Source: Nitrosopumilus sp. K4 (GTDB lineage: Archaea; Thermoproteota; Nitrososphaeria; Nitrososphaerales; Nitrosopumilaceae). From it: a DNA stretch of 64,000 nt. The notes under the pieces were generated by a model, which was given only the letters and a program-made list of their open reading frames with translations, searched no databases and was not told the origin of the DNA. The translations under genes were made by a program, and so were the position numbers. Position 1 is the first letter of the stretch; each line of letters begins with the position of its first letter. Below are positions 30,247 to 59,122 of this stretch, one piece after another. The stretch lies in contig NZ_CP067007.1 in NCBI RefSeq assembly GCF_018128925.1, positions 660,164 through 724,163 of the forward strand, in the 5' to 3' direction.

Positions 30247-30984
30247 TTATGGGGTCAGTCTTGGATGCATAATATGTAATCCATCTTCACTTAGTTCGAT
30301 TGGATGTATTTGATCACTGTGTCTAACACCACGAAGTTTTGTTACTTGAAGGGATCTTTCCATAGTGTCTTGTTTTCGTGAATGACGTAATTGTATAACT
30401 CCAGATGATACAAACCACTCAGGTGGAATTTTGTTGTCTTCTACAATCTCTGATAGTAAAATTGATGTCACGCCATAATTTTCTAGTGCTTGAACTAATC
30501 CTTGAAGTCCTTGTCTGGTATAAAATTCATCATCATATTGCATCTCTAAAATTGTGATAGAGTCAATCACAATCCTCTTAGCCTCTATTCGTTTAATGCT
30601 GCTGAGAATCAGCTTTGTGAGATGCTCAAAAGGCATCTGTTCTCCTCTGTACAGGGAATCATCCTTGCCTATAGATTCCTCTGAAATTTTAAATGGTCTT
30701 GCATCTATCATCAAAATTTTATCTTTAGATACCAAATCATCAAAATCCCATCCGTACATCTTACAGTCGTTTTTTATCTCATTGATATTTTGAGACAATG
30801 TAATGTATACGCCAGGCTCATCAAAGTCCTTTGCACCTTTGTATAGAAATTGCAATCCTAATGTGGTTTTGCCTGAACCTGGAGGACCGGACACAACTAT
30901 TGAACGTCCCTGTTTTAACCCTCCTGAAATTATAGAGTCTAACCCGGGAATTCCTGTTTTGACCTTTGTATAGGTGGTACTCAT
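30247..30984 (-). CDS. KaiC-like RecA-superfamily ATPase, single domain
   Basis: A single-domain KaiC/RadA-family ATPase. Walker A is GPPGSGKT (33-40), Walker B-like RIVIDSITIL is near the middle, and the KaiC C-terminal motif KLRGVRHSDQIHPIEL is present. Single-domain KaiC proteins act as signalling or regulatory ATPases in archaea; ArlH of the archaellum is a relative. It lies next to the TrmB gene at 31060, both leftward, at the edge of the pilus locus, and may regulate it. Convergent with the LOR/SDH gene (stops adjacent). Confidence 0.85.
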   Translation of the reverse strand: MSTTYTKVKTGIPGLDSIISGGLKQGRSIVVSGPPGSGKTTLGLQFLYKGAKDFDEPGVYITLSQNINEIKNDCKMYGWDFDDLVSKDKILMIDARPFKISEESIGKDDSLYRGEQMPFEHLTKLILSSIKRIEAKRIVIDSITILEMQYDDEFYTRQGLQGLVQALENYGVTSILLSEIVEDNKIPPEWFVSSGVIQLRHSRKQDTMERSLQVTKLRGVRHSDQIHPIELSEDGLHIMHPRLTP

Positions 30985-31059
30985 ATAGAAAATCTATGCT
31001 GATTTTTGTATATAAAGAGGAAGACTAGTTGAATTCTAACAGGTATGAGTTTAGGAAAA

Positions 31060-31911
31060 TTATAAATGAATATTTTTTGAGGTTGACCACTGTGATTCAA
31101 ACAACAATTTCATCGAATACACTAATGCTGGAGAATCAGTCCACATTGCAAAGGGCTCGTCTGAATTGTTTGCATTCTTTGTAAAGAAGAGTAACTCTGA
31201 ATTGTCTTTTAAAATGAAACAAAGATTATTTTGAATTTCTTTACTGAGGGATTTTATGTTCTTTCTTTCAATATCATCAAAGATGTAAAGTGTTTTTGAA
31301 GTGCAAGAACTCAATATTCTGAATTGTTGTTTTGATTTTATGAATTGCTCTAGGAAATCTCCATGATATAATTTTAGAAAATCTTTCTCAGAGCCTAAAA
31401 TCAAAAACTCTTCTTTGAAATTATCCGTCATTTCTGTAATCTTTGAATGAATTTGATTTGCACCCTGAAGCATTTGAAATTTGTCTTCTGTCGATTCTTC
31501 AACTGAATCAAAATCTGGAATGTTTTTCCATAATTCTGACAAGTCTTTTTCCATCATTTCGAGTCCTTTTACTCTTTCTTTTTCAGAATTGACTAGAATC
31601 CATATTGCTTTGTCAAGAGGCAATGCCTTGAATTGGATTGGATGCTGAAATGTTGCAGTGACTACTCCTTTGTTTTGTAATGCAGACAGTAAATGGTATG
31701 TTTCGGTTCTTGGAAGTTTTAATGCCTTGCATACTTCTGGAGCCGTCTTTGAGCCATACTTTCCAAGGTAAATGAACACCTTGCTTTGGTTTGATGTTAA
31801 ACCGTATTTTGATAATTCTGATTGTAATTTTTCAACAGACATTTTGTACTCGTACATCTGGGTGTCTGGTGCCGGGTCAAATATTGAAATTTGATTAGTT
31901 TCTTTTACCAT
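31060..31911 (-). CDS. TrmB-family transcriptional regulator
   Basis: A winged-HTH regulator. Residues ~30-95 form the TrmB DNA-binding domain (LSKYGLTSNQSKVFIYLGK; LKLPRTETYHLLSALQNKG), and the remainder matches a TrmB effector/PLD-like domain (FQMLQGANQIHSKITEM; EEFLILGSEKDF). It is clearly paralogous to the protein at 47009-47977, which shares SKVxxYL, PRTETYHLL and ILGxExDF blocks. A GGAGG precedes the ATG by ~10 bases, so this mRNA has a leader; palindromes lie further upstream. It marks the left edge of the pilus locus. Confidence 0.88.
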   Translation of the reverse strand: MVKETNQISIFDPAPDTQMYEYKMSVEKLQSELSKYGLTSNQSKVFIYLGKYGSKTAPEVCKALKLPRTETYHLLSALQNKGVVTATFQHPIQFKALPLDKAIWILVNSEKERVKGLEMMEKDLSELWKNIPDFDSVEESTEDKFQMLQGANQIHSKITEMTDNFKEEFLILGSEKDFLKLYHGDFLEQFIKSKQQFRILSSCTSKTLYIFDDIERKNIKSLSKEIQNNLCFILKDNSELLFFTKNANNSDEPFAMWTDSPALVYSMKLLFESQWSTSKNIHL

Positions 31912-32049: not shown

Positions 32050-32604
32050 TCAGTTATTCTCCATTTTCACCAAATTTTCATTATTTTCAGGTTTTGCACT
32101 ATAGATCGTTTGAAATGAGAATTTCTTGCGAGTCTGGGCGTTTTTGGAAAATGCAATTTCTAAAGGTCCCGAGTTTTTCAGATATACAATACACCCCATA
32201 TCTTCTTTGAGACCTTTTTCAATAACCATGTCAAGGGTCTTTTTTGTTTTCTCCATGGACTCAAGCTCAGATTTTAGTTCATCAATTCCCTTAAAGTATA
32301 GTTCTAGTTCTCCATTTAGCCCCAAACCATTGTAAATGAAGATGCCATCAAGATCATACCATTGAGAATTTTTCTTTTTCTTTGAGGGTTTCTTTTTTTT
32401 CTCAGAATCCGATGAGCTTTCTAGTTTTTCTTTTAATTCTAAAAATTCAGGATCATCTTTGCTAGAGTCATTATTCATTCTAATTTTTTCACCAAGAATG
32501 TTGGAATACTCTTGAATATCTTCTTCAAGTAACTTTATTTTGTTGTTGATATGGCTCTGTAACTCATTTACAGAATTAAATCGCATTACTAGATTTGAAT
32601 TCAT
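32050..32604 (-). CDS. hypothetical pilus-locus protein, 184 aa
   Basis: Not recognised. Coiled-coil-like N-terminal half (~10-75), a highly basic run (KKKKPSKKKKNSQWYD, ~75-92), then a globular beta-rich region (GIFIYNGLGLNGELELYFKG). No signal or membrane segment, so it is cytoplasmic. Its ATG overlaps the previous gene's TGA by 4 bases; it is the last gene of the leftward pilus operon. Confidence 0.65.
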   Translation of the reverse strand: MNSNLVMRFNSVNELQSHINNKIKLLEEDIQEYSNILGEKIRMNNDSSKDDPEFLELKEKLESSSDSEKKKKPSKKKKNSQWYDLDGIFIYNGLGLNGELELYFKGIDELKSELESMEKTKKTLDMVIEKGLKEDMGCIVYLKNSGPLEIAFSKNAQTRKKFSFQTIYSAKPENNENLVKMENN

Positions 32605-33095
32605 TGAGGAACACCATCAGGATTCTCAGGTGTTGTGGTGGCCCCGTTTCTAAGATTACTCAATTGGCTCAATTGTTTTGTAGCAGAACGCAAGAAGGTA
32701 ATTTTTTCAGTAAGATATGCTTTTTCAGATGTGATCAATTGTAGTATTTGTGGAATCACATATTGAATTATCTGTGTTAAGGTATCTGGTGAATAATCGC
32801 TGATTTTTTTAATTTCTGTTTTTCCATTTGCTAAACGTATTACCATGTCTAGATTTGGGAGAAGAGTAATTTGTGAATCTTCTGGCAGATGAAATATGCC
32901 TGGATGAATGGTTACTGAAAAAGACAAAAACTCTGTGATGATTTTTAGTGAATTATACAAATCATCAATTGTGTTTGCTTTTTGATTCTCTAATTCATAA
33001 ATTTGTAGGGATTCTGAAATCAAATTATTTAATTGATCAAGTGTGGAAGATACATTTGGTACTCCCTCTTTGGGTGTACTTTCAGTAGATTGCAT
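32601..33095 (-). CDS. hypothetical pilus-locus protein, 164 aa
   Basis: Not recognised. Helical, cytoplasmic protein with a central beta segment (IHPGIFHLPEDSQITLLPNL) and helix QIIQYVIPQILQLITSEKAY. It shares a 4-base overlap with the gene downstream and lies 60 bases downstream of the LamG pilin-like gene, so it is probably the same operon. Confidence 0.65.
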   Translation of the reverse strand: MQSTESTPKEGVPNVSSTLDQLNNLISESLQIYELENQKANTIDDLYNSLKIITEFLSFSVTIHPGIFHLPEDSQITLLPNLDMVIRLANGKTEIKKISDYSPDTLTQIIQYVIPQILQLITSEKAYLTEKITFLRSATKQLSQLSNLRNGATTTPENPDGVPQ

Positions 33096-33155: not shown

Positions 33156-35651
33156 CTATGTGCATGGGTCACAGACATCAACTACGCCTACATAGAATGT
33201 TCTAAACACACTGGCTCCTTGACTGTCATATCCCACAATTGACACATACATACGATAATTGCTATTTGTGGGCATATCCCCTGATGGATTTGGAGATAAT
33301 CCTGGTTCTGTGTTTGGATATCCGAATGTCAGCACTCCTTTATCATCTACTGACATAAAATTCCCGTCTTCATTGGAATTCATGGTCGTACTGTTAAATT
33401 TTTCTAGCAATCCTGCATATGACATAGATTTATCCAATTCCTCAAAAATTACACGTGTACCTGAAAACAACATAAACATCCCATTTGGCCCTGCATTAGA
33501 GATGGTAAACACCAAAGGATTTTTAGAATCCCACTGGAAGTAAGAAGGGAAAGGATTGTTTGGTGTAGGAAGCACAAGTTTTGAGCCAATGTTATCGGTA
33601 TACCCGTTATCATCCGTGTTCATTGTCCAATCTAAAAATGAATTACCTGAGATATTCTCAATTTCAACATATAATCTTGAATCTGATGTAAAATGAAATG
33701 AGCCTAATGAATCAGTACTATTTGTTAGTAAATTGCTATGAGTGAAATCATTCCACCCTAATGGAACATTGGAAGTATCTTGAAATGGAATGTCTATAAT
33801 TTCGGTATGTATGGTGTCTAAAATATTTCCACTGTCATCTGCCCGATAAATCTCATAGCTTATTCGGTGAGCTGCTGTTCCATAATTTGCATCATGAAGA
33901 TCCGATGCTTGAGATGATGTTATTCCGTAATTATTCCAATGCATTAATTGGCTCAGTTCGCCTGTAAAATAATTGGTTCCTGAAGGATCTCGTCCAATGT
34001 TTGTATCTGCAGACGTAATGTCTATAATGTCTTTTCCTGTTCCACTGTTACCTGTTTGGAAATCAGTATCGACTTGACTTCCATCAACATACAAAATGCA
34101 ACTATGTGCCGTGTCTCTTACTGCTACAAAGGAATGCCACTTATCATCTGCATAGGATAATGGTGATGTGCATGTGGTTGGCGCAGCAGAATCATCATCA
34201 GCTACAAATGAAAACTCTACTTTTCCATTATTGATTGATATGTCATAAAATTCTTCAAAACCTGCAACATCTTGCTCAACACGATAAATGGTAAGCTTGC
34301 CTGAAGATGTGCTTGTCTTAAACCACCCAGCAGTAGAATCATCAGTAGCACTAATGTCTGAAAATGCATCATCATATGAAATAACAAAATAATCATCTCC
34401 GTCAAATATCGCTGTATCAGTTCCGTTCTGACCAACACCATTACCAGTTCCCGGAGTGCCTGCTTGTGTTAGATCAATATTATTTCGTGAATCCAATAAT
34501 GGATCAGCAGAATCAAAAAAGTATACCAAATCAGGAAGGTTTGCAGATAATGAAGACGGAACAAGATCACTTGACATAACCAATGTTAAATCCCATGTTC
34601 CCTGAGGTACATCTACTTGGGTGGCCCCATCATTTTTTGAATAATATCTTAAAGGCGAATCAGCAGGCATAGTACGAGTATCTCCTGACAATTCCGGCAA
34701 TCCAGAATAGGTCTGAAAACTAGTGCCATTTCCACCAGGAGAAGGAGCAGGGACCCCTGTAGTTTCACCGTGAAATGCTAGCGTGTCATCGGTAGTTTTA
34801 CAACAGGTCAAACCTTCAGACTCAAGTGCGGTTTCACTCTGTGATGCAAATGAAGGGTTTTCGATTTTTACAGTGACTGAATCAAGCAAATTTGCAGGAA
34901 TTGGGTTGTTGTTGATGTAAGCATTACATGGTGCAGTATCCCCCCCTGTTCCAGTAGCAACATATACCCACCTAAATGTCGCAACATCTCCTCGTTCCAA
35001 TGTTTCGACTGTGTTGGGGACAGGATATGTCAAACCAGATTCAGATTCAAGAGTAATATCTGGATCACATACTATTGATGGTGATATTTCTGTTAAGATG
35101 CTATCAGATGTTTGATTATTGATAATTTCCAATGTTAAAGTGGTTGAAAATCCAGGAGCTATGATTTTTGGCTCGGCGTGAAGTTTTGCATATAACTTTG
35201 AGGTCATGGTTGAGCTTACTGAGAAAGGTAATGCGTTTCCTCTGTCGGTAATTAATTTAAAATCATACGCTTCAGTATCTAAAGCAATCAACCCAATATC
35301 TTGTCCTATGTTAGATTTTTTGCCGCCGGGGCTAACGGATTTATTGATGTCAAATTTCTGAGGAACCCAACTAGAATCGGTTGTATTTTCAACCCACAAA
35401 CGTGCAATTGTGACTGGGACGTTTCCTGTGTTTTGTATTGTAAAGTTAAATTTTCCACCATCTATTCTTACCTGAGTTAAATCAAATTTTTCATTTGCTC
35501 TGTTTGTTTGTTCTATCTCATTTGTTGCAATTGTTTGTGCAAAATTATCTACAGTATCCATGCTGTATGTGATATATGCAATTGATGTAGCAGCTGCAAT
35601 TACAAAAAATACAGCACCTACAATTGTACTAAGAGCTCTTCTATTTCTCAT
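33156..35651 (-). CDS. 831-aa pilin-like protein with LamG (concanavalin-like) domain
   Basis: The N-terminus MRNRRALSTIVGAVFFVIAA is an archaeal class III (type IV pilin) signal: basic leader, Ala-Leu-Ser cleavage region, then a hydrophobic helix. The extracellular part has beta-rich Ig-like segments (~60-300), and a LamG/concanavalin A-like domain at ~372-590 (LPDLVYFFDSADPLLDSRNN; DDKWHSFVAVRD; SQVDTDFQTG; ISYEIYRAD). The last ~240 residues form another Ig-like domain. At 831 residues it is far larger than ordinary pilins (100-250). I infer an adhesive pilus tip or minor pilin. It overlaps the upstream small pilin-like gene by 4 bases. Confidence 0.82.
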   Translation of the reverse strand: MRNRRALSTIVGAVFFVIAAATSIAYITYSMDTVDNFAQTIATNEIEQTNRANEKFDLTQVRIDGGKFNFTIQNTGNVPVTIARLWVENTTDSSWVPQKFDINKSVSPGGKKSNIGQDIGLIALDTEAYDFKLITDRGNALPFSVSSTMTSKLYAKLHAEPKIIAPGFSTTLTLEIINNQTSDSILTEISPSIVCDPDITLESESGLTYPVPNTVETLERGDVATFRWVYVATGTGGDTAPCNAYINNNPIPANLLDSVTVKIENPSFASQSETALESEGLTCCKTTDDTLAFHGETTGVPAPSPGGNGTSFQTYSGLPELSGDTRTMPADSPLRYYSKNDGATQVDVPQGTWDLTLVMSSDLVPSSLSANLPDLVYFFDSADPLLDSRNNIDLTQAGTPGTGNGVGQNGTDTAIFDGDDYFVISYDDAFSDISATDDSTAGWFKTSTSSGKLTIYRVEQDVAGFEEFYDISINNGKVEFSFVADDDSAAPTTCTSPLSYADDKWHSFVAVRDTAHSCILYVDGSQVDTDFQTGNSGTGKDIIDITSADTNIGRDPSGTNYFTGELSQLMHWNNYGITSSQASDLHDANYGTAAHRISYEIYRADDSGNILDTIHTEIIDIPFQDTSNVPLGWNDFTHSNLLTNSTDSLGSFHFTSDSRLYVEIENISGNSFLDWTMNTDDNGYTDNIGSKLVLPTPNNPFPSYFQWDSKNPLVFTISNAGPNGMFMLFSGTRVIFEELDKSMSYAGLLEKFNSTTMNSNEDGNFMSVDDKGVLTFGYPNTEPGLSPNPSGDMPTNSNYRMYVSIVGYDSQGASVFRTFYVGVVDVCDPCT

Positions 35652-36106
35652 GGGGTAGTCACCTGTGTAGAAATTATCGAGCCTCGCTCTGTCGTGATTA
35701 CTGCAGTAAATGATGAATACGGAGTATGATCAAAGACATTGTCACTTGTTTGATAAGAATATGATTCTGAGGGACTTAGCTGACCATCACTGATTGTTTC
35801 TTCATGAAGGGTCTGCTGTGTATCTGGATTTCTAAATTCTACATCGACAATGTTTAATGAATTTGTTCCAATGTTTGTTATTGTCATGTTTGTAAATTTG
35901 GGACTGCTACTAAACCAAACATATTCTAAAATCACAGATTCTTTTAATTTGTTAATATTATTTTGAAATGAAGTATTAAGATTTGCTTGTCTTTCAGTGA
36001 GATTAGATTGTGACCAACTTACAAGTCCTGTACCCATCAATGCAACAGCTGAAAGCAGAATTGCTGCAGTTACAATATTGCTTAATCCTCTCCTTTTACA
36101 AAGCAT
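35648..36106 (-). CDS. small type IV pilin-like protein, 152 aa
   Basis: A class III signal (MLCKRRGLSNIVTAAILLSA) leads a hydrophobic helix and a ~115-residue beta-rich domain (VILEYVWFSSSPKFTNMTIT). I start at ATG 36106 because a GGAG lies ~10 bases before it; TTG 36121 would add five residues. It is probably a minor pilin partner of the giant pilin-LamG protein, with which it shares a 4-base overlap. Substrate for the prepilin peptidase at 46245. Confidence 0.8.
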   Translation of the reverse strand: MLCKRRGLSNIVTAAILLSAVALMGTGLVSWSQSNLTERQANLNTSFQNNINKLKESVILEYVWFSSSPKFTNMTITNIGTNSLNIVDVEFRNPDTQQTLHEETISDGQLSPSESYSYQTSDNVFDHTPYSSFTAVITTERGSIISTQVTTP

Positions 36107-36159
36107 AATTAAAAACTCCAAAATTAGGTATTATCGGTCTGTATGTCTGCCAAGATTAC

Positions 36160-36822
36160 TTACACTGTAGATTCCAAAGGTTCACTTGAGCTATTCTTTT
36201 GATTCATTTGTGTTGAAATTGTTTCTAATTTTTTACGTAGTTCTTCAGAGGGGTTCTTGCTATATTCATCAGATGTTTTTGCATATAGTTCTTGTAATTC
36301 TTCTATTGTCTGTCCTTCTTTTTCAGTAGTTTCATCGGATGTAGATTCTGTAATTGGGGGTTCCCCAGATACGGTTTCTTTTGACGATTCTGGAATTTCT
36401 ATAGTTTCAGGTTCTGTTTCCGTTTCTGCTTCTACATTGTTACTGTTTTGAGGAATTGTTTCATCACCTAATGTCAATATTTGATATGGAGGACAAGGAA
36501 CATTTGCACTTTTTGAAAGCATAAAAAATGAAGGAAACAGTTCATGATAGATTAATGGTAGAATTTTTGGTATGTCGTTTTCATTTTTGTCTAAAATAGC
36601 GTCTCTTTCCTCTGGTTTTCCAAAAACCCTGATCGTTCCATCTACTGCAATTCGTACATTTTTTGGTTGTGAAAGAATAGTGAAAGTGTATTTAAAACCA
36701 GAATGGTTTTCTGTATTTTCAAATTCATCAATATTTGCTTGTATGTCATATTTTTCAAAGGATTCCATGACTGGATTTGCTTTACTTATCGATAAAGAAT
36801 TGATATCTACCTTTGATTTCAT
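36160..36822 (-). CDS. hypothetical pilus-locus protein with acidic C-terminal half, 220 aa
   Basis: Not recognised. The N-terminal ~110 residues are a globular alpha/beta domain (FTILSQPKNVRIAVDGTIRV; PLIYHELFPSFFML), the rest is acidic, low-complexity and ends in a coiled coil (ELRKKLETISTQMNQ). No signal peptide. I start at ATG 36822 (MKSKVDINSLSISKAN); ATG 36846/36879 are in frame but would extend into the promoter region. First gene of the leftward operon, divergent from the MoxR gene. Confidence 0.6.
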   Translation of the reverse strand: MKSKVDINSLSISKANPVMESFEKYDIQANIDEFENTENHSGFKYTFTILSQPKNVRIAVDGTIRVFGKPEERDAILDKNENDIPKILPLIYHELFPSFFMLSKSANVPCPPYQILTLGDETIPQNSNNVEAETETEPETIEIPESSKETVSGEPPITESTSDETTEKEGQTIEELQELYAKTSDEYSKNPSEELRKKLETISTQMNQKNSSSEPLESTV

Positions 36823-36914
36823 GAAAAAACACGAGTAAATTGTCATTAAACAATACGTATGTAATACTTTGATACACATGCTAGCATTAAGAAGGATAAA
36901 ATGTACATTATTCT

Positions 36915-37910
36915 ATGAATGATGCTTCTGGAAGGCAGGGGGAACAGTCAAAGATCAGCTCTAAGAACATGAATCTTTCTGTTACGGTTTCAAAATTAAA
37001 AAGAGATGAACACAAACTAGCAAAATTATATGATTTCAAAAAATATCTGGATCCCTCAAAATTCTCATTTCCTGAAAAAATGATGGAGATGGTGCCAAAA
37101 GGAACACCGCCTTATCTTGACAACGGAGAGCACTATGTAGAACGAATTGCAAGAGCATTGGCATATTTCAAACAATGTGCCTTAATCGGTCCAAGTGGGA
37201 CTGGGAAAACACACATTGTATATCTTGTATCCGAATTATCCGGTCTTCCGTTATGGGAAATTAACTGTGGTTTGCAAACATCTGTCTTTGACTTGTTTGG
37301 AAGATATGTGGGACTGGGAAAAGAAAATTGGATTGATGGTTTGATTACTAGTTGGGTAAGACATGGTGGCATATTGTATTTGGATGAGGCAAACATGATG
37401 AAACAAGATATTGCAACAAAACTCAATCCAATTTTAGATACTAGAGGACACATGGTATTAACAGAAAAAGACAACGAGTTAATTCATAGACATAAAAATG
37501 CATTTTTAATAATTAGTATGAACCCATTTTCGTCAGAATTTGCAGGTACTAAACCAATTAACGCTGCAATGAGAAGAAGAATGAGCGTATGGTTGAATTT
37601 TGACTACATGAGTGTAGGGGACAAAGTTGATCAAAAAGAAATTGAAATGGTTGCGGAAAGAGGAAACATTTCATTAAATGACGCAGAAATAATTACAAAG
37701 ATCGGTGCCAAGCTAAGACAAGAATACAAAACAGGTGATTTACCTTATGGTCCATCAATTGGTGATCTGGTTAACTGGGGAAAAATTGTTTCAGACGGTG
37801 CAAACATCTTAGAAGCAGGAATAGAAACAATAGTTTCAATGACAAGTGATGATCTGGAAATTCAAGATGAAGTAATAAAGATCATCAAGAAGTTTGTTGG
37901 CGAGAAGTGA
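36915..37910 (+). CDS. MoxR-type AAA+ ATPase
   Basis: A MoxR-family AAA+ chaperone. Walker A is GPSGTGKT (92-99), Walker B GGILYLDEAN (151-160), sensor 1 and arginine-finger regions follow (FLIISMNPFSSEFAGTKPIN; AMRRRMSVWLNF). MoxR proteins pair with VWA proteins to activate or assemble targets; the adjacent gene encodes such a VWA protein and its ATG overlaps this gene's TGA. The pair sits inside a pilus locus, suggesting assembly or maturation of the pilus machinery, which is inference. Confidence 0.88.
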   Translation: MNDASGRQGEQSKISSKNMNLSVTVSKLKRDEHKLAKLYDFKKYLDPSKFSFPEKMMEMVPKGTPPYLDNGEHYVERIARALAYFKQCALIGPSGTGKTHIVYLVSELSGLPLWEINCGLQTSVFDLFGRYVGLGKENWIDGLITSWVRHGGILYLDEANMMKQDIATKLNPILDTRGHMVLTEKDNELIHRHKNAFLIISMNPFSSEFAGTKPINAAMRRRMSVWLNFDYMSVGDKVDQKEIEMVAERGNISLNDAEIITKIGAKLRQEYKTGDLPYGPSIGDLVNWGKIVSDGANILEAGIETIVSMTSDDLEIQDEVIKIIKKFVGEK

Positions 37911-39463
37911 TGAAAGATACTCTTGCTGATGTTTCTCACGAATTATTTTTTGATCTCTCTGGAAAAAACCCTTCTGAAATTGACATATTTTTTGAAGAAT
38001 CCATAGACTATCCTAAAATCTCAAAAACACCAAGAATTACAATCACTATTCCATTGCCAAGAGAATATGGAGGAAAATATCATTTGCTTGGATATGAATT
38101 TGCAGAATATGAAACCAATCATGAGTCAATATGGACATTATATGCGGGGATTTTAGTTAAATTTGCAGCATATGTTCATAATATAGAATATTTAGATTTG
38201 GAGGATTGGAAGAAAAATAAAACTTCTAAATTATGTGAAAAAGTAATTCAATTCATAGGAAATACACTTGCTGAAAATCATCTTCAAATGAACTATCCTG
38301 AATATAAAATCGAATTAGACAATATAGAAAACAAAATTGCTGAAATAAATTTTGATTCAAATTCTAAGCAAATTGAAACAAGGAAAAAATTTGCATCTCA
38401 ATTTGCAGTAAATAAGACATCCATTCAAGAATTAAAAACAAAAATAATACAAGATAAAGAATCTAAAGCAAAAATAATTGAATATGCTGATTTTCTGTAC
38501 AGACATCAAGACTATCTAAAAGATACGGTTTTTCCATTTTATGATGAAAAAGAACTTTCATTTAAAAATAAAAACAAGACTATTTTCATAAAACCAAAAT
38601 CAGAATTTAAAAAATTAGTCGATTCGTTTGATGAAATGTGGATTGACGAAAAAATCAAAAAAGCAAGAATAACAAAAAAATATGATAAAATTACCAAGGA
38701 TCTTAATTTTGACAAAATTGGTTTTGCCGATGAAAATATTGGAGAATATCTTAGATTAAAAAATGAAAGTAGCATGTTTCTCAAAAAATTGAGAACTCAA
38801 TTAAAAATGGTTGCAAATATTGTTGATGATCCAAATGCTGAAGATTTAGGATTAGTAGAAATGCAAAAAGCAATTCAGGCAATGGCAAGTCAAAATGACA
38901 GCATACAGATTTTTGAGCAAGATGTTGCACGAAAAACAGATGAAAATTGGGCCATAATTTTAGATACTAGTGCAAGTATGAAACTAAAATTTGAGGATTT
39001 GAAAAAATTTGCATTGTGCCTTTCTGAGACTGCTGATGAAATGAATTCAAGAGGAGGTCAATGGGGATTGTTTTCATTTAACAATGAATTTTTGATTGTC
39101 AAAGACCACTCTGAAAAATACACTCAAATGGCCAAAGCCCGAATTGGAGGAATCAAAAACAAAGGCTTATCGTTTATTCCAGATGCCATAACCTTAGGTG
39201 CCAGAATCATGCAAGACGACCCTACTGATAAAAAATTCATTTTTGTCATTACCGATGGACAGACATTAGGCCAAGATCAGGATGAAAAGGCATTTCAAGA
39301 CGCAATAAAACAGGCCCGAAACATGGGAATTAACGTTATAGGCATAGGACTGCCTGAAAAAATCTCAAAATACTTTACTTTGAACATTCCACACGGAGAT
39401 CTCAAGAAAACTGTGGCTAAATTCATTGATGCCTATATCGAGGTAGCACAGTCCTCGATGTAA
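37910..39463 (+). CDS. VWA-domain protein, MoxR partner
   Basis: The C-terminal ~180 residues are a von Willebrand A domain with the MIDAS motif DTSAS (Asp352, Ser354, Ser356), SFNNEFLIVK and FVITDGQTLGQD. The N-terminal ~330 residues are a helical region typical of CoxE/CobT-like VWA partners of MoxR. It is cytoplasmic, with no signal peptide. Its ATG overlaps the MoxR stop by 1 base (TGATG), so the two are coupled. It precedes the pilin gene by 117 bases. Confidence 0.85.
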   Translation: MKDTLADVSHELFFDLSGKNPSEIDIFFEESIDYPKISKTPRITITIPLPREYGGKYHLLGYEFAEYETNHESIWTLYAGILVKFAAYVHNIEYLDLEDWKKNKTSKLCEKVIQFIGNTLAENHLQMNYPEYKIELDNIENKIAEINFDSNSKQIETRKKFASQFAVNKTSIQELKTKIIQDKESKAKIIEYADFLYRHQDYLKDTVFPFYDEKELSFKNKNKTIFIKPKSEFKKLVDSFDEMWIDEKIKKARITKKYDKITKDLNFDKIGFADENIGEYLRLKNESSMFLKKLRTQLKMVANIVDDPNAEDLGLVEMQKAIQAMASQNDSIQIFEQDVARKTDENWAIILDTSASMKLKFEDLKKFALCLSETADEMNSRGGQWGLFSFNNEFLIVKDHSEKYTQMAKARIGGIKNKGLSFIPDAITLGARIMQDDPTDKKFIFVITDGQTLGQDQDEKAFQDAIKQARNMGINVIGIGLPEKISKYFTLNIPHGDLKKTVAKFIDAYIEVAQSSM

Positions 39464-39580: not shown

Positions 39581-40201
39581 ATGACAAAACTAGGCAACAA
39601 GCCAAACAAAAGAGCAATCAGTACTGTATTGACAACCATCATCATCTTGGTGGCATCTGTCGTATTGGGTTCAGGCGTTGTTTTGTACGGTACCAGTCTT
39701 TTCCAAGGCGGTACTCAGACAGAAGCAATGACTGTATCTGGAACTCAGATGTGGGTACATGCAACTGATTCAAATGGTTTAGCTTGGGGTGCTGCAAAAG
39801 TTAGAAACACTGGAGACAAGGTTATTTCAGTAGACAAAATCCAAGTTAGAGGTTCCGATGTACCTTTTGGAAACTGGTATCCTGACACAGCCCTAACTGC
39901 TTCTGAATTCCAGCAATCACTGCCACATCCAGGATGGTCTGGAGTTGCAGGTGGATTGACTGCTGATGGAGCATGTGGTGGCGGTGAAACAGTGAATATT
40001 GACTTGGCAGGAGTAGGTGATGTATGCGCAAATGCTGCAACAGGTCCAGTATCATTAAGTACAGGACAATCAGCAATCATATACTTCAAACTATCAAATG
40101 GCACATTATCTACACTTGACTCAGGTATCAATACCAGCGTGAATATATTTGCTGGAAACGCAGGAGCACCACAAAGCGTAGCCGTGAAAGGACAATCCTA
40201 G
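39581..40201 (+). CDS. type IV pilin/archaellin-like protein, 206 aa
   Basis: Class III signal with cleavage before Ala-Ile-Ser (NKRAISTVLTTIIILVASVV), a long hydrophobic helix and a ~150-residue Gly- and Thr-rich beta domain with cysteines (CGGG, VCANAATG). Length and composition fit a major pilin. Processed by the peptidase at 46245 and assembled by the ATPase and platform genes just downstream. An AT-rich stretch with no overlapping gene lies before the start, so it probably has its own promoter for high expression. Archaellin is the alternative; ArlF/ArlG-like partners are absent here, favouring a pilus. Confidence 0.85.
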   Translation: MTKLGNKPNKRAISTVLTTIIILVASVVLGSGVVLYGTSLFQGGTQTEAMTVSGTQMWVHATDSNGLAWGAAKVRNTGDKVISVDKIQVRGSDVPFGNWYPDTALTASEFQQSLPHPGWSGVAGGLTADGACGGGETVNIDLAGVGDVCANAATGPVSLSTGQSAIIYFKLSNGTLSTLDSGINTSVNIFAGNAGAPQSVAVKGQS

Positions 40202-40254: not shown

Positions 40255-41793
40255 ATGGGGAAAAAGAAAAACGAGCAGGGTTTGGAAACTTTTCTAAAAA
40301 GTGAATTTTTAGATCAATATCAAAACAAAACACCTTCAGGATACAAAGTAGTGGAAAAGTATCCGTTATTAGCTCCTTTTAGCTATGTTAACATTTTGGA
40401 AGACAAAGAAACAGCAGGGTATCTGTATCAAGTAGATGAAGTAAAACTAAATAATTCCGAGCAAATGATTTTTGAGAAATTATATTCCTTAATTGAAGAT
40501 TCTCTAGACTCACCTGAAAATATCACTAAAGACTTGGGCTTTACATCATTTCTCAACAAAACATTAAAAGAAAATGAAAAAATGTTTCAAGAATATCCCT
40601 TAGCAAGTATTGAAAAGGTAAAGTACTATCTAGAACGAGATATCGCAGGTTTTGGCTTAATTGATTCACTAATGCATGACCCAAACATAGAAGATGTGAG
40701 TTGTAGTGGAATCGACACCCCGATTTACGTTTGGCATAGAAAATATGATAGCATGCCCACAAACATCCAATTTGAGGATGAAAGATTAAACAATTTTGTA
40801 TCTAGGATTGTCTTTAGAGCAGGAAAGCATATCAGCTCAGCATTTCCGATTTCAGATTTAGCCTTGGAGGGAAATCACAGAATTTCAGTATTGTATCAAA
40901 AAGAAGTAACACCAAAAGGCACTAGTTTCACAATAAGAAAATTCAGAGAGGACCCATATACGGTAGTTGATTTGATCAATTTTGGAACATTAGACATCAA
41001 TATTGCTGCATATCTATGGATGCTAGTTGAATCAAAGATGTCAATTATTGTAATTGGTTCTACAGGTAGCGGAAAAACAACCATACTTAATGCAATTACA
41101 GGATTGATAAATCCAGATTACAAAATATTTTCAGTTGAAGATGTTGCAGAAATTAACATCAATCATGAAAACTGGTTTAGTTTAATCTCAAGAACAGGGT
41201 TTGGTGCAAGTGGTGAAGGGGAAATTGGACTATATGATTTGATCAAATCAGGGGTAAGACACAGACCAGATTATATCGCAGTAGGAGAAATCAGAGGTTC
41301 AGAAGCCTATGTGATGTTTCAAGCAATGGCTACAGGCCATGGCGGATTATGTACCATGCACGCAGACAGTTTGGAATCTGCTTCAAAAAGATTACAGCAA
41401 AAACCAATGGATATCCCCCCTGCATATCTGTCCTTGATGAACTGTGCCATAGTAATCAGGAGAGTTAAAAACAACGTTACAGGACAGAGCAGCAGAAAAG
41501 CCGTAACAGTTCAGGAAATCATCAGTGCAGATTCTTTTAACGATGTTTTTAATTGGAATCCAAAAACAGATGAATTTGATTCAAAGATTGAACAAAGTAA
41601 AATGTTGTACAAAATTTCTGAGCAAACAGGACAAGACATGGAAGAGATTATCAACGAATTTGAGAAAAGAAAAAAACTCCTCAGACATCTAACTGAACGT
41701 GGAATCCGAAGTTATAAGAAAGTCTCAGAATATGTGGGGATGTACTATCGTGATTCTGACGCTCTACTAGCGAAAATGGAATACGGGGTATAA
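40255..41793 (+). CDS. type II/IV secretion system ATPase (PilB/TadA/ArlI-like)
   Basis: The hexameric assembly ATPase of the pilus. It has an N-terminal ~200-residue region, then the ATPase with GSTGSGKT (268-275), Asp box VEDVAEININHENW, Walker B YIAVGEIRGSEAYVMF, and His box GHGGLCTMHAD. The 512-residue length is typical of archaeal members. It is followed by the platform gene after 4 bases. Family members drive archaellum, pilus or secretion systems; the mixture of neighbours favours an archaeal type IV pilus. Confidence 0.92.
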   Translation: MGKKKNEQGLETFLKSEFLDQYQNKTPSGYKVVEKYPLLAPFSYVNILEDKETAGYLYQVDEVKLNNSEQMIFEKLYSLIEDSLDSPENITKDLGFTSFLNKTLKENEKMFQEYPLASIEKVKYYLERDIAGFGLIDSLMHDPNIEDVSCSGIDTPIYVWHRKYDSMPTNIQFEDERLNNFVSRIVFRAGKHISSAFPISDLALEGNHRISVLYQKEVTPKGTSFTIRKFREDPYTVVDLINFGTLDINIAAYLWMLVESKMSIIVIGSTGSGKTTILNAITGLINPDYKIFSVEDVAEININHENWFSLISRTGFGASGEGEIGLYDLIKSGVRHRPDYIAVGEIRGSEAYVMFQAMATGHGGLCTMHADSLESASKRLQQKPMDIPPAYLSLMNCAIVIRRVKNNVTGQSSRKAVTVQEIISADSFNDVFNWNPKTDEFDSKIEQSKMLYKISEQTGQDMEEIINEFEKRKKLLRHLTERGIRSYKKVSEYVGMYYRDSDALLAKMEYGV

Positions 41794-41797
41794 TTTC

Positions 41798-43240
41798 ATG
41801 TCATTGTTAAAAGCAATGGGAAAAAACGGAAAACCTCAGAAGGAAGATCAAACAATATTATTTGAGTTGCCATATTTTATCACAATAGTAACTCTTCTTG
41901 CAACAAGTGGTTTTGGACCGTACACGATTTTTCAAAAAATGCGCGAAATCAAACTACTGCCAAAAATTAGCCTAGAGTCTGAGAAAATCATCAAAAGAAT
42001 AGACATCCTAGGCATGGATCCACTAACAGTAATGATGCAAATCAAAGAAAAAACAACTTCAAAATCATTTGGCGAATTTCTTAACGGCTATGTGTCATCA
42101 ATCCAAGGAGGGGGAGATGTTGTAAATTATTTGAAAAGCAAAATGAATAGTGCATTTGACGCATATGCAAATACACAGAAAGAATCTGTAGAAAAAGTAA
42201 AAGCTCTCATAGAGGCATTTATGACAATGCAAATTGTTGTTTTGGCAGTATACATAATCATTACTGCTACTAGTTCAACGGGAGTGGAACAGTCTTCTGA
42301 AGGACTAGACCCATTCTTTATGATCATAGTTTTACCACCAGTAGTCTCAGCATTTTTCATGTTTGTATCAAGCAAGTTAAACAAATCAAAAATGTCTGAA
42401 CTTGATTGGAAAAAGATTGCAATGATAGGAATTCCGGGCGTTGCTATTGCAGGACTACTTTACTCTATGGATATTTTACCAGATTATGATGCATATATTT
42501 TAGGAATTGCGTTAATTGTAGCATCAATATTGCCTGCAATAAAATTCTCAAAAGCATATTCGTTGTCCTTAGATTCAGAAAATGCAACACCTCAAATTCT
42601 TAGAGATATTGCAGAGGCAAGAAAAGCAGGTTTGGGTCCAGAAAAATGTGTTGTGAGAGCATGTAAAAGAAAAGATTTTGGATTTTTCAACAACATTGCA
42701 AATTCCATTGCAAACAAGTTAGAATGGGGAGTGTCGTTAAACAACATTTACAAATCAATTCAAAAAGAAATCAAAGACTTTCAGATATTGATCAGTTTCA
42801 AAATTCTTTTTGAAATAATTGCAGCAGGTGGAGGCAATGTTCACACGTTAGAATCACTTGCAGGAATTGCAGAAAAAATACAAAATATTGAAAAATCAAA
42901 ACGAGAGATGTTAAAACCATATGTAATGATAGGGTTCATGCTGATTGGAATTACTGGATTTACAACTTTGATGGTTATTGATTCACTTACAAGCATCAGT
43001 GTACAATCAGAGATAGAAGAATACAAAAAAGAGCAATTAGAATTGGAATCAAAATCAAGATTTGAACTAATGTCATTTTCAATTATTGCACAGGCATGGT
43101 TAGCAGGGCTATTTCTTGGAAAAGTAACTACGGGTAATTATTCAGGAGGATTCAAACTTTCAATCTTTTTGATAATAATTACGTTAATTGCAATATTTGT
43201 CATTAGTCAGGGATTATTTGACGTAGGAGCGTTTTTCTGA
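41798..43240 (+). CDS. type IV pilus platform membrane protein (TadC/ArlJ-like)
   Basis: The inner-membrane platform that works with the assembly ATPase. Two T2SSF-like cytoplasmic helical domains (~20-140 and ~265-375) alternate with membrane helices (VVLAVYIIITATSS; FFMIIVLPPVVSAFFMF; AMIGIPGVAIAGLLYS; YVMIGFMLIGITGFTTLMV; SIFLIIITLIAIFVISQGLF), about eight in all. The 480-residue length is in range. ATG follows the ATPase stop by 4 bases. Confidence 0.88.
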   Translation: MSLLKAMGKNGKPQKEDQTILFELPYFITIVTLLATSGFGPYTIFQKMREIKLLPKISLESEKIIKRIDILGMDPLTVMMQIKEKTTSKSFGEFLNGYVSSIQGGGDVVNYLKSKMNSAFDAYANTQKESVEKVKALIEAFMTMQIVVLAVYIIITATSSTGVEQSSEGLDPFFMIIVLPPVVSAFFMFVSSKLNKSKMSELDWKKIAMIGIPGVAIAGLLYSMDILPDYDAYILGIALIVASILPAIKFSKAYSLSLDSENATPQILRDIAEARKAGLGPEKCVVRACKRKDFGFFNNIANSIANKLEWGVSLNNIYKSIQKEIKDFQILISFKILFEIIAAGGGNVHTLESLAGIAEKIQNIEKSKREMLKPYVMIGFMLIGITGFTTLMVIDSLTSISVQSEIEEYKKEQLELESKSRFELMSFSIIAQAWLAGLFLGKVTTGNYSGGFKLSIFLIIITLIAIFVISQGLFDVGAFF

Positions 43241-43305: not shown

Positions 43306-45912
43306 ATGAAGAGTATTTTCTTATTTTTAATAATATTGGGAAGTTTTTTCACAATTCCTGTACAGGGACAACAGGTATTTGAGCTAGGATATCAGCAACA
43401 TCCAGGAAAATTATTAGAAAATACCGAAGGAATTCTTCAGATCTATGTAAAATCAAACGAATACATGATTCCAAAAGAGATTTCAAATTTGCAAGTAACG
43501 AGCTCTGATAGAAAAATCATTGAGGTGTTAGGCGTTGAAAAAATGTCTGATGGTTTTACCACCAATGTTAAACTGAGTGCAAAAAATTCTGGAACTGCAG
43601 ATATTTCTGTTGCAGCACCGGGATTTACATCTCAAGAAATTCCAATTACTGTCTATACAAGCAACAACAATCCTACTCATTTACTATTAAAAGCAACCCC
43701 TAATGACTTTGCAGTAGATGGGCCAAAGTACGGGTATTTGGCAGTAGAAGTAGTCACAAGTGGGGATTTACCAACAAAGACAAACAAAGATCTAGAAATT
43801 GAATTAACATCTCCAAACTCCGATATCATAATTTTAGAAGAAGAAAAAATCACTATAGACTCTGGAAATTATTTTGCTATTACCAAATTTAAAATAAAAG
43901 ATTCGGGAGATGCAATGGTTTTTGCAAAAACAGAAGGAATGAAACCAGTTAGTGCACAAATTCATGTTAGAGAAGCCAAAGAACCATTGACGCTTAAACT
44001 ATACACATACCCTGAAAATTATTTAACAGGAACAAATAACAAAGGTTTTGCAATTATACAGTTAGAAGATGGTGAAGGAATCCCAGTAAAAGCAACCGAA
44101 GATATTCCAATTAAAATTGCTGTAGAAAATCCAGATGCAAGAATTAACACAAGTAATGATTTTGAAGAAATAATTTTCAAACAAAAAGAATTAATGATAA
44201 AACAAGGAGAATACTCAACATACACAAGCTTTACCCCGAGACCCGATTTTTCAGATATCATTGAAAGTTATGTAGAAGATCCAGAAGCATCAGGCAGTGT
44301 AGTAAAGTCACTGTCGATTGGAATATCTGCTGAAAACTATCATGTCAAGGATGGTTCAATCAACATAGTTCATGATGAATATGTTAGTGAAACAACAGGT
44401 AAAGGACCGGTAGTGGTAAAGTCCATTCCATTCCTAGTTACGGGAGATCGAGAAATTTTAGGAGTAGCGTATCTTGAAACAGATGTAGAAGTTTCTAAAA
44501 AAAGACCTGATGAGACCAGATACAAAGAAACAGTTACCATTCCAGTCATGGCAGATGAAACTTTCAAAATGTATGCAGATTCATCAGATTTGAAGACAGC
44601 AAGTATAATTGATCCAGAATTCAATGTAGGCGATAATGCCGCCTTGGTATTTGGTAACACAGGAACCGTAATTCCAGAAACTAAATCAATGGATTTTACA
44701 TTTGAGGATGGTGAGGGAATTAAGAAATTTACAGGCAATCCCACAGGACCAATAGAAGATGATCTGACCATAAAATCTGAAAGTTTAATTCCTGAAATTT
44801 TAGCAGGAGAAGAATTTTTTATAATTTCATACATGTGGGAAGAGGAAGAGGAAGACGAGGATGCAGCTACAACTGAAGATGAAGATGAAGAGGAAAATGG
44901 GAGAGAAGGTCCAACCCATTTTATTTCAAACACAGTAATTACATTTTCGGCAGACAACATAATAGAAATCGAACCACAGGTAGTGAAACAAAATGATGCA
45001 TATGCAATACTCAACGCCAATGCACTAAAAGTCGGAGACACATCAGTTACAGGTACTGCAGGTAAATTTGAAACAGGATTAGATCTATCAAGTAAAACTA
45101 CAGATCCAACTTCTATCTCAATGGCATACGTTAAAACAATTTTTCCAGGTACAACTAGTTTTGCAACAATTCAACTATTAGATTCAGCTGACAACCCAGT
45201 ACATGTAAAAGAAGACGTTCACATAAAATTAGTATACGACGGAATAGATTCAATTGAAATTCCGGAAAACATTACAATTAAAGAAGGAGAATATTTTGAA
45301 ACATTTGAGATAAGTGGACTAAAGGATGGAAAAATAAACATATCTGCACTATCAGAAGACTTTCCTTTGGCAAAATTTGAAATCAACGTATCATCACTTC
45401 ACCCAAATCTAGTTTTAACATCTCCTGACGCCGTAAACCCAGGCGATGTAATTGATGCAGAGATGAAAATTTCATTTGAAGACGAACAATTACCATTATC
45501 TGATTACAATGTAATATGGGAAGTAGAAGGAGCAGAAATCAGACAACAAGATGAGATTACAAATTCAGACGGAATAGCAAAGATCAAAGCAGTTGCAACA
45601 AGTCAGGATACAGTAAAAATCACTGCAAAAATTTCTGGACAGGGATTTTTTGAATCATCAGTATCAAAACCCACATCAGTGATTCAACCACAAGTATCTC
45701 CAGAGGGACAAGTTGTTGAGGAAGAGAAAAAAGAATTAGCATTACCCATAACTGGAGAAAATGCAGTATTTGTGATAATACCTGTTGCTATTGGAGCTGC
45801 AATATTCTTTTTAAAGAAAACTAATAGGCTAGATGAAATTCTAGAGAGAGTAAATCTATCTGATAAAGTAGAAGAGATCAAAGAGAAAGTATCAGAATTA
45901 AGAGACAGATAG
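43306..45912 (+). CDS. large secreted Ig-like surface protein with C-terminal membrane anchor
   Basis: Signal peptide (MKSIFLFLIILGSFFTIPVQ), then repeated beta-sandwich modules of invasin/Ig-like type (repeats of LKLYTYPENYLTGTNNKGFA style; IRLLDSADNPV-type motif at LLDSADNPVHV), an acidic linker at ~510-533 (EEEEEDEDAATTEDEDEEE), and a C-terminal anchor at ~820-838 (AVFVIIPVAIGAAIFFL) with a basic helical tail. Several Cys-free modules suggest an adhesin or stalk. It stands downstream of the platform gene and may be a surface partner of the pilus. No sorting motif is seen. Confidence 0.8.
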   Translation: MKSIFLFLIILGSFFTIPVQGQQVFELGYQQHPGKLLENTEGILQIYVKSNEYMIPKEISNLQVTSSDRKIIEVLGVEKMSDGFTTNVKLSAKNSGTADISVAAPGFTSQEIPITVYTSNNNPTHLLLKATPNDFAVDGPKYGYLAVEVVTSGDLPTKTNKDLEIELTSPNSDIIILEEEKITIDSGNYFAITKFKIKDSGDAMVFAKTEGMKPVSAQIHVREAKEPLTLKLYTYPENYLTGTNNKGFAIIQLEDGEGIPVKATEDIPIKIAVENPDARINTSNDFEEIIFKQKELMIKQGEYSTYTSFTPRPDFSDIIESYVEDPEASGSVVKSLSIGISAENYHVKDGSINIVHDEYVSETTGKGPVVVKSIPFLVTGDREILGVAYLETDVEVSKKRPDETRYKETVTIPVMADETFKMYADSSDLKTASIIDPEFNVGDNAALVFGNTGTVIPETKSMDFTFEDGEGIKKFTGNPTGPIEDDLTIKSESLIPEILAGEEFFIISYMWEEEEEDEDAATTEDEDEEENGREGPTHFISNTVITFSADNIIEIEPQVVKQNDAYAILNANALKVGDTSVTGTAGKFETGLDLSSKTTDPTSISMAYVKTIFPGTTSFATIQLLDSADNPVHVKEDVHIKLVYDGIDSIEIPENITIKEGEYFETFEISGLKDGKINISALSEDFPLAKFEINVSSLHPNLVLTSPDAVNPGDVIDAEMKISFEDEQLPLSDYNVIWEVEGAEIRQQDEITNSDGIAKIKAVATSQDTVKITAKISGQGFFESSVSKPTSVIQPQVSPEGQVVEEEKKELALPITGENAVFVIIPVAIGAAIFFLKKTNRLDEILERVNLSDKVEEIKEKVSELRDR

Positions 45913-46244: not shown

Positions 46245-46934
46245 ATGAGTGAAATTTTTACCGATTTAGGTATAATCAGAATAGGTGTTGCATTATCTAT
46301 GTTAGTCATAGGTTCCATTATAGATATCTGGAAAAGGGAAATACACGATTATTATTGGATAGGATTTGCTTCTTTAGGAATCATTATAACATTATTTGAA
46401 GAAAACATGCTTGAATCCTTTGTCCTTATGGGATACGCCTTAATCATTGCGCCATTTTCACTGTTAATTTGGAGATTGGGGTTGTTTGGAGGTGCAGATG
46501 CTTTTGCACTAATTGTACTTGCTGTAATTGCACCTGTTTCAACGTTTTCAGAAAATGCAATAACGCCATTTACAGTACTATCAAATGCTGCAATCTTGTT
46601 TGTAATTCCATTATTGGCAAACCTAGTAAGAAATATCATATCATTAGCTAACAAACAGGACATTTTTGAGGGGTTTGAGGAGAGTCTTTGGACTAAGATC
46701 GGCGCAATGATTATTGGGTATAGGGCAAAAAATCCAAAATTCGGATTTCCAATAGAGAGGATTGAAGGAAAAATCAAGAAAATTTCACTAGGATTTCACC
46801 ATGCAGAAAATCAAGAATTTTGTAACAAATCAGACACATGGATTACGCCTGGAATCCCATATTTGTTGTTAATTTCAGGAGGGTATCTCATTCAATTAGT
46901 ATACGGAGATGTGTTGATTTCTTGGTTCATGTAA
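46245..46934 (+). CDS. prepilin peptidase (type IV, A24/ArlK-like)
   Basis: The membrane aspartyl peptidase removing class III signal peptides. Asp27 in IGSIIDIWKREI and Asp85 in LFGGADAFAL (a GGAD version of the GxGD motif) are the catalytic pair. Six or more helices span the 229 residues, with a cytoplasmic segment ~150-205 before the last helix. It is the processing partner for the pilins at 33156, 35648 and 39581. Confidence 0.88.
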   Translation: MSEIFTDLGIIRIGVALSMLVIGSIIDIWKREIHDYYWIGFASLGIIITLFEENMLESFVLMGYALIIAPFSLLIWRLGLFGGADAFALIVLAVIAPVSTFSENAITPFTVLSNAAILFVIPLLANLVRNIISLANKQDIFEGFEESLWTKIGAMIIGYRAKNPKFGFPIERIEGKIKKISLGFHHAENQEFCNKSDTWITPGIPYLLLISGGYLIQLVYGDVLISWFM

Positions 46935-47008: not shown

Positions 47009-47977
47009 ATGACAATAGAAGAGTATGCAATAGAGCAATCAGGACTAGAGTCAAAATTTCACAATCCTATTGAGGAACTAAACAAACTGATCGGGGCCTA
47101 TGGGCTGACTCCAAATCAATCAAAAGTTTACCTGTACCTTAGTAAAATCGGAACAAAAACGGCATCGGAGATTTCTAAAAATCTCAAAATACCAAGAACT
47201 GAAACATATCATCTCTTAAACTCGCTTGAACAAAAAGGAGTTGTATACTCCATATTTGGAAAGCCAACCAAATTTGAATCAGTAGATATCGAAAAAGCAA
47301 TTGACATTTTGATACGCAATGAAAAAAACAGAGTTTCAGAAATGGAGTCAAAAAAAGAACACATTGTAAAACTTTGGAAGACAATTCCAAATCATGGAAA
47401 AACAGATTCTGAGGCAGAAGAGAACAAATTCCAATCACTACAGGGAAAAAACTCCATACTTGCAAGATTGCAGAAAATGATCCAAGATTCAAATGAAGAA
47501 GTGTTAGTTTTAGGAACAGAAGAAGACTTTATGAAATTTTATCATACAGAGTTTACAGAGTATTTGAAAAAATGCAAAGGAGATTTGAAGGTACTTACAA
47601 CATACACAAACAAAGGCAATTACATCTTTGATGACGTACCATTAGAAAAAATAAAAAAAATTGAAGATAAAAATAGGGAGAATTTTTGCTTTATAATCAA
47701 AGATGACGATGAAGTCATTTTCTTCATCAACAATTCAATTATTGATAATGTGATGGCAATATGGACCGATTCAAAATCATTTGTCTCTACATTAAAGTCT
47801 CTGTTCAAATTAGTATGGAAAAAATCAAACCACATCAAAGAGTCTGATGCATCAAAAATTCTCGGATCAGAAATCACATATGAGCACAGACTAAGAGAAA
47901 TAGAGCAAGAGAAAAGAATTCTAAGTTATCTTCAAAAAAATTTCAAAATGAACAAAAAAGGAGTTACTAAAAAATGA
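47009..47977 (+). CDS. TrmB-family transcriptional regulator (paralogue of 31060)
   Basis: Winged-HTH N-terminus (GAYGLTPNQSKVYLYLSK; LKIPRTETYHLLNSLEQKG), then the same effector domain as the protein at 31060 (FQSLQGKNSILARLQKM; EVLVLGTEEDF; YIFDDVP). It is ~40 residues longer at the C-terminus with a basic helix (KRILSYLQKNFKMNKKG). Its stop overlaps the ATG of the response regulator (ATGA), forming an operon regulator-receiver-kinase at the right edge of the pilus locus. Confidence 0.88.
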   Translation: MTIEEYAIEQSGLESKFHNPIEELNKLIGAYGLTPNQSKVYLYLSKIGTKTASEISKNLKIPRTETYHLLNSLEQKGVVYSIFGKPTKFESVDIEKAIDILIRNEKNRVSEMESKKEHIVKLWKTIPNHGKTDSEAEENKFQSLQGKNSILARLQKMIQDSNEEVLVLGTEEDFMKFYHTEFTEYLKKCKGDLKVLTTYTNKGNYIFDDVPLEKIKKIEDKNRENFCFIIKDDDEVIFFINNSIIDNVMAIWTDSKSFVSTLKSLFKLVWKKSNHIKESDASKILGSEITYEHRLREIEQEKRILSYLQKNFKMNKKGVTKK

Positions 47978-58846: not shown

Positions 58847-59122
58847 TTATACCATCTTGGGAGCTCTAACATATGTTCCCTTGTAGTGTTTTAGTTTTTC
58901 AATCAGTTTATCTGGATATGTAATATGTTCGTCTTTTCTAAGACTCGAAAGAGGAACATCTTTCATCAAAATTTCTTCATCATCAACACCTGCCGAATCT
59001 AAGATGTCAAAATAGTCAATCATCGCATGGACCTTGTCTATGAACTCTTTGTGATCATGGACATCTATTTTCATTAATTTTGTTACTTGTTCTATTTCTT
59101 GTTCAGTTACCACATAAATCAC
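58847..59122 (-). CDS. gatC: aspartyl/glutamyl-tRNA amidotransferase subunit C
   Basis: The small belt subunit wrapping GatA and GatB. 91 residues, helical N-terminus (TEQEIEQVTKLMKIDVHDHK), then an extended segment with the PLSSLRKDEHITY motif region. The GTG start comes right after the aspS stop; GTG 59113 is another possible start. Stop abuts gatA. Confidence 0.9.
   Translation of the reverse strand: MIYVVTEQEIEQVTKLMKIDVHDHKEFIDKVHAMIDYFDILDSAGVDDEEILMKDVPLSSLRKDEHITYPDKLIEKLKHYKGTYVRAPKMV

Follow-up and report, generated by a model that had tools for sequence, protein, structure and literature searches.

The window analysed here is a stretch of 64,000 nucleotides from Nitrosopumilus sp. 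K4 (contig NZ_CP067007.1, positions 660,164 to 724,163), a genome that encodes archaeal AmoA. Two adjacent genes on its minus strand encode a candidate giant modular pilin of 831 residues (33156-35651) and a candidate small pilin (35648-36121). Both sit within a type IV pilus (T4P) locus, whose plus strand encodes a putative major pilin of 206 residues (39581-40201; class III N-terminus recognised by eye, NCBIfam UpsA match of 3.6e-8, below the cut-off), a pilus assembly ATPase (40255-41793; Pfam T2SSE, 2.9e-36), a TadC/FlaJ-type platform protein (41798-43240; Pfam T2SSF, 3.7e-15) and a FlaK-like prepilin peptidase (46245-46934), the sole Peptidase_A24 match in the genome. A large Big_1-like surface protein with a C-terminal hydrophobic segment seen by eye lies between the last two (43306-45912, plus strand; Pfam Big_1, 5.3e-6, below the cut-off).

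The two genes are bordered by uncharacterised proteins recognised by synteny: p239 (36160-36879, minus strand), which also borders the cassette in relatives, p164 on the other side (32601-33095, minus strand) and p184 (32050-32604, minus strand). The position between p164 and p239 is hereafter called the main slot. A MoxR/CbbQ-type AAA ATPase (36915-37910, plus strand; Pfam AAA_5, 4.4e-19), which weakly resembles the gas-vesicle protein GvpN, and a VWA-domain protein (37907-39463, plus strand; Pfam VWA, 3.4e-10) border the pilus genes at 36915-39463, as they do in most of the slot loci of the relatives. The pilus region is flanked by two TrmB-like regulators and a KaiC-like ATPase (30247-31911 and 47009-47977), of which the KaiC-like ATPase (30247-30984; Pfam, 8.4e-60) and the TrmB-family regulator at 31060-31911 (Pfam TrmB, 1e-12), both on the minus strand, form a pair that accompanies the slot in relatives. 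In addition, the same genome holds a second T4P locus (G000:C1:526000-540000), where a 591-residue giant overlaps a preceding small pilin by 4 bases; no LamG match was found in this 591-residue protein.

The giant's frame, which the first-pass annotation had placed correctly without a strand, begins with ATG and reads on the minus strand. As the 17 other full-length rows of our alignment A1 are similarly long (799-876 residues), its length is not a frame artefact. The proposed class III pilin signal is recovered as well: the N-terminus (MRNRRA/LSTIVGAVFF) matches what we take to be the archaeal class III pattern, with a predicted leader of six residues (1-6, MRNRRA/LS; 35634-35651, minus strand), and 74 of the 77 giants with a judgeable N-terminus, among 90 related giants examined, carry the same pattern. 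The pilin root (residues 1-147; 35211-35651, minus strand) consists of a helix predicted at 4-52 followed by a beta, Ig-like head. A profile built from 18 relatives matches the solved archaeal pilin 8fk7_A, presumably from a Pyrobaculum filament, over residues 3-142 (E=5.1e-7), and the single giant sequence matches it too (E=0.0027). The NCBIfam UpsA model matches the root weakly (2.2e-5, 24.6 bits, below the cut-off of 130), and the bindosome model BasA gives E=0.046 and 13.9 bits, far below its cut-off of 230. With its predicted class III signal, its homology to a solved pilin and its linkage to T4P genes, the giant would be classed as an archaeal type IV pilin.

Beyond the root, a second beta module that may act as a stalk (residues 148-265; 34857-35210, minus strand) was delimited from the model strands, and in one relative (L096) the corresponding module is recognised by Pfam as NPCBM_assoc/NEW3 (170-240, E=2.4e-6), so that, together with the root, the Ig-like modules proposed earlier are confirmed. 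It is followed by a linker or beta region that is conserved in A1 and has low pLDDT (residues 266-371; 34539-34856, minus strand), then by the LamG part, and the protein ends in a C-terminal beta region that is Ig-like at low confidence (residues 591-831; 33159-33881, minus strand). Residues 590-831 folded alone reached a pLDDT of 70.9, and since their matches are generic Ig-like ones (best Z 7.6), we claim no specific fold for them. The AlphaFold model of the whole giant, based on 12 aligned sequences, is poor (mean pLDDT 61.8, pTM 0.42), and the arrangement of the domains is therefore not readable from it.

The LamG/concanavalin-like domain (residues 372-590; 33882-34538, minus strand) is supported by Pfam, modelling, structure comparison and conservation, as the earlier annotation had anticipated. 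Pfam Laminin_G_3 matches residues 433-573 above its cut-off (E=1.8e-11, 44.9 bits versus 27.6) and Laminin_G_1 also matches (2.7e-5), so that a pilin root is combined here with a domain that is not specific to T4P, as in a modular pilin. The predicted fold spans about 366-590, with ten-residue pLDDT means of 68-91 over 441-530 and 78-86 over 551-590, and lower values over 381-440 and 531-550. The fold prediction and Foldseek search suggested earlier, together with VIA, recovered a jelly-roll/LamG fold: AbnA arabinanase entries aligned with the predicted model in VIA with Z 20.6-21.0, the highest reached, and rmsd of 2.6-2.9 Å over 187-189 residues. These include the LamG-like domain 4 of AbnA (5hon, solved with arabino-oligosaccharide; Z 20.6, 2.6 Å, 187 residues), and Foldseek with the giant's model lists Streptococcus sanguinis PilC (7oa8) at rank 44 (E=1.2e-6). 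Over the same part, the profile built from 18 relatives also picks up neurexin and an S-layer-domain protein. Many matches in both structural searches are to binding domains of clostridial neurotoxins; these share the jelly-roll at low identity, and we attach no toxin-like meaning to them.

Across 40 LamG domains of the family, W443, C494, W505, C518 and G591 are invariant (40/40), H571 is kept in 36 and W572 in 39. Position 467, which aligns with an Asp of neurexin LNS2 that we take to be a calcium ligand, is acidic in 33 of the 40, a correspondence drawn from the alignment; it would fit a metal or glycan site without demonstrating one. The only other Laminin_G_3 match of the genome (G000:C1:1464709-1465227) lies in a 3219-residue open frame away from the pilus genes. 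In one relative (genome G133), a LamG giant is broken by in-frame stops (L021:1474-3654; L040:9992-12172).

The small pilin gene, which had been noticed as a coupled neighbour, indeed overlaps the giant: its stop and the giant's start share four bases (35648-35651, ATGA). It is listed with 157 residues, and the ATG at 36106 is its likelier start. Among the 90 giants, 79 have a small pilin (<260 aa) directly upstream, at most 106 bases away and in the same orientation; 43 of the 90 overlap it by precisely 4 bases, and 11 have none by this definition. The class III pattern occurs in 73 of the 79 small pilins, and the small pilins match the profile of the giant's root.

Relatives of the giant were found in 92 of 250 genomes of the host's family when searching with the single protein (E<=0.001), and, when searching with a profile, in 112 of 330 genomes of the host's class with a completeness of 80 or more, belonging to 30 of 75 genera; the records containing them carry names that include Nitrosopumilus, Nitrosarchaeum and Nitrosopumilaceae. 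Many of these matches span only about the first 260 residues. A scan of contigs gave 0 relatives among 35 pattern matches with the window protein alone and 12 among 47 with alignment A2. We fetched 80 regions, selected by hand from the match table, which with other loci gave the 90 distinct giants (L014 and L051 are one locus, counted once). Loci were labelled as slot loci by BLASTP matches to proteins of the window and of L006 within four genes. Outside the slot, the cassettes of relatives lie between or beside aspS and gatC, beside genes resembling those for biotin synthesis (by eye), or beside the peptidase. In the window gatC and aspS abut at 59122/59123; several relatives hold a small-pilin and giant cassette between or beside these two genes. 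A slot cassette and a remote cassette occur together in at least 16 of the 67 genomes with a fetched giant, and since at most three candidates were scored per genome, the cassette numbers per genome are lower bounds. In six slot loci (L062, L063, L069, L074, L078 and L111), the cassette is inverted and the giant is preceded by a further pilin-like gene, which encodes about 480 residues.

The part of these proteins beyond residue 260 or so falls into several unrelated payload classes. Single-linkage clustering of BLASTP matches after the root, entered by hand for counting, gave a LamG class, two short classes, a class of 550-600 residues and small groups, and a few giants stop at the root without a payload. 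In the main slot, we counted 27 LamG payloads, nine of the short170 class, five of short137, three of P550, two of P300, two without payload and four unassigned. Pfam searches with ten other giants gave matches above the cut-off in only three of them, LamG in L058, a propeller in L119 and NEW3 in L096, and weak matches or none in the remaining seven. The propeller giant (L119:7051-9237, plus strand) belongs to a second T4P locus, where a beta-propeller (Vgb_lyase 1.1e-25, NHL 7e-22) replaces the usual payload of 590 residues, recalling the propellers of PilY1.

Mapped on a tree of the neighbouring MoxR and VWA proteins, the payload classes require at least 8 changes over 41 loci (least possible 5; mean after shuffling 16.2). 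The tree holds 41 of the 49 slot loci, as eight were dropped for having no VWA protein over 350 aa, and L070 was set by hand to 'no payload', though its copy carries a stop codon. This clustering of payloads on the neighbour-gene tree rules out rampant swapping and indicates that payloads are mostly inherited and now and then replaced.

In several close pairs, roots that are 84-100% identical are followed by payloads with identities down to 20-60%. Per 50 residues, identity runs 90-86-88-76-78 and then 39-26-16% in L062/L063, and 100-94-76-56-42-22-40-40-34 in L090/L099; in L059/L103 it begins at 92-94-88-72 and is down to 41 inside the LamG part. Little contrast between root and payload was observed in L041/L054 and L050/L053. 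Where the VWA proteins of LamG loci share 70-85% identity, the mean identity is 89 for the ATPase, 76 for the major pilin, 62 for the small pilin, 59 for the root, 49 for LamG and 51 for the C-terminal region. In 10 of 10 hand-picked pairs, dN beyond residue 260 exceeds dN of residues 1-150, with dS near saturation, and dN is the lower of the two in every case that yielded both values. With dS so close to saturation, the payload gives no support for positive selection. Both the pattern of a constant root with a variable payload and the pairing with a small pilin are computational observations, and a root that stays constant while the payload is exchanged or diverges fast is what a pilus head recognising different partners or surfaces would be expected to show.

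Our preferred reading, to which we give a probability of roughly 55%, is that the giant serves as a minor pilin of modular build which presents a lectin, probably at the tip of the pilus, and has the small pilin as its partner. The first-pass annotation had proposed an adhesive tip or minor pilin; its structural premises (pilin root, LamG fold and coupled small pilin) hold by computation, as does the T4P locus, and the cleavage, assembly, tip position and binding are what we infer from them. The peptidase encoded at 46245-46934 would cut the giant after residue 6, and the helix and pilin head (1-147) would pack into a filament of the 39581 pilin built by the 40255/41798 machine, a step suggested by gene order and by homology. 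The small pilin, which would be translated from the same message immediately ahead of the giant, may serve as a partner or adapter, a role suggested by the coupling and by the precedents of PilA-PilC and KilK/KilO. The stalk, the LamG domain and the C-terminal modules would project outward, most likely at the tip since their bulk seems hard to accommodate in the shaft; the LamG domain may bind a glycan presented by a surface or by another cell.

Other readings of the same proteins have to be weighed. The giant could be cleaved and enter the pili as a shaft or priming subunit rather than as a tip adhesin. Its root does resemble an ordinary pilin (8fk7), the small pilins match the profile of that root, and system-specific minor pilins may line a filament (PMC10191384); nevertheless, nearly 700 residues past the root would then need fitting beside each neighbour, and the modelling presented for PilB and PilC favours the tip (PMC8179133, PMC9934059), and we consider this placement unlikely. 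It is also improbable, in our estimation, that the giant works outside any pilus, as a binding protein that carries a class III signal and is anchored to the cell, like the bindosome of Sulfolobales, its LamG domain capturing sugars or glycans at the cell surface. The weak BasA match and the location of the relatives' remote cassettes away from recognised T4P genes agree with such a protein, but in the window the giant and its coupled small pilin lie within a T4P locus, the model for the pilin UpsA outscores that for BasA, and no transporter was recognised by eye among the neighbours.

Finally, the LamG domain might be structural or bind proteins, in a pilus without glycan recognition. LamG domains also bind proteins or serve structurally, those of the neurexin type being protein binders, and the residues invariant in all 40 domains look fold-keeping. 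Against this, sugar-binding domains are among the nearest fold matches, and PilC, functionally the closest parallel, is a lectin; we regard this as the least probable of the alternatives considered here.

More tentatively, and with more doubt than belief, the lectin-displaying minor pilin could be one instance of a wider arrangement in which the type IV pili of ammonia-oxidizing archaea bear recognition heads that can be exchanged, each a cassette of a small adapter and a giant with a constant root and a swapped or diversified payload. Several cassettes from separate places in the genome would perhaps be served by one machine, and the heads would set the surface, partner or kin cell that is recognised. 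Such a system would correspond, in archaea, to the Kil tips or to the variation seen in phage tail fibres. Little is known about what archaeal pilus tips contain or about the choice of surfaces or partners by ammonia-oxidizing archaea, and a two-gene candidate with a recognisable lectin fold makes both questions testable by experiment, while the pattern of constant root and variable payload offers a way to read recognition heads from the genomes of an abundant nitrogen-cycle group. In the literature searched, outside which most subscription papers and all preprints lie, we found neither an archaeal LamG pilin nor a pilin family of constant root and variable payload in ammonia oxidizers.

Parts of this picture are already known: modular pilins with PF13385 in bacteria, and large archaeal class III proteins proposed as tip adhesins. 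The latter are DUF2341 proteins with a class III signal, encoded in T4P loci and interpreted by analogy with PilY (PMC4858521); they belong to Methanococci and others and lack LamG, the terms LamG and concanavalin being absent from the main text of that article. Another large archaeal Ig protein, VARTIG of Thermococcales, has a hypervariable C-terminal domain, and its authors report no counterpart elsewhere (PMC8416519); it belongs to a different order, and the available portion of its description mentions no pilin signal. The survey of bacterial modular pilins lists PF13385 (Laminin_G_3) among the grafted modules (PMC8179133); as with PilB, what is shared is the addition to a pilin of a module foreign to pilins. 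The survey began from the N-terminal motif IPR012902, and its main text leaves archaea unmentioned. In Sulfolobales, a variable region of UpsA sets species-specific, glycan-based partner recognition (PMC7064770). UpsA is likewise an archaeal pilin, and its model weakly matches the giant's root and the 39581 pilin, but it is a small major pilin with a short recognition stretch, not a grafted domain. The Kil (Tad) pilus of Myxococcus has one machine with several exchangeable sets of tip pilins and adapter pilins (PMC12075869), among them a large pilin with a variable domain; it differs in being a bacterial Tad system whose function was shown by genetics. The closest likeness is to S. sanguinis PilC, which is stabilised by PilA and in which the pilin moiety is followed first by an Ig-like module and then by a glycan-binding lectin of the concanavalin A-like type (PMC9934059). 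The order of modules is the same and the small partner pilin PilA has its parallel in the coupled small pilin, whereas PilC is bacterial and the candidate giant pilin is longer, with an extra C-terminal beta region, an archaeal Ig-like root and payloads exchanged across its family. Taken together, the precedents of PilC, the Myxococcus Tad pilus and UpsA lead us to take the giant for a probable minor modular pilin that displays a lectin.
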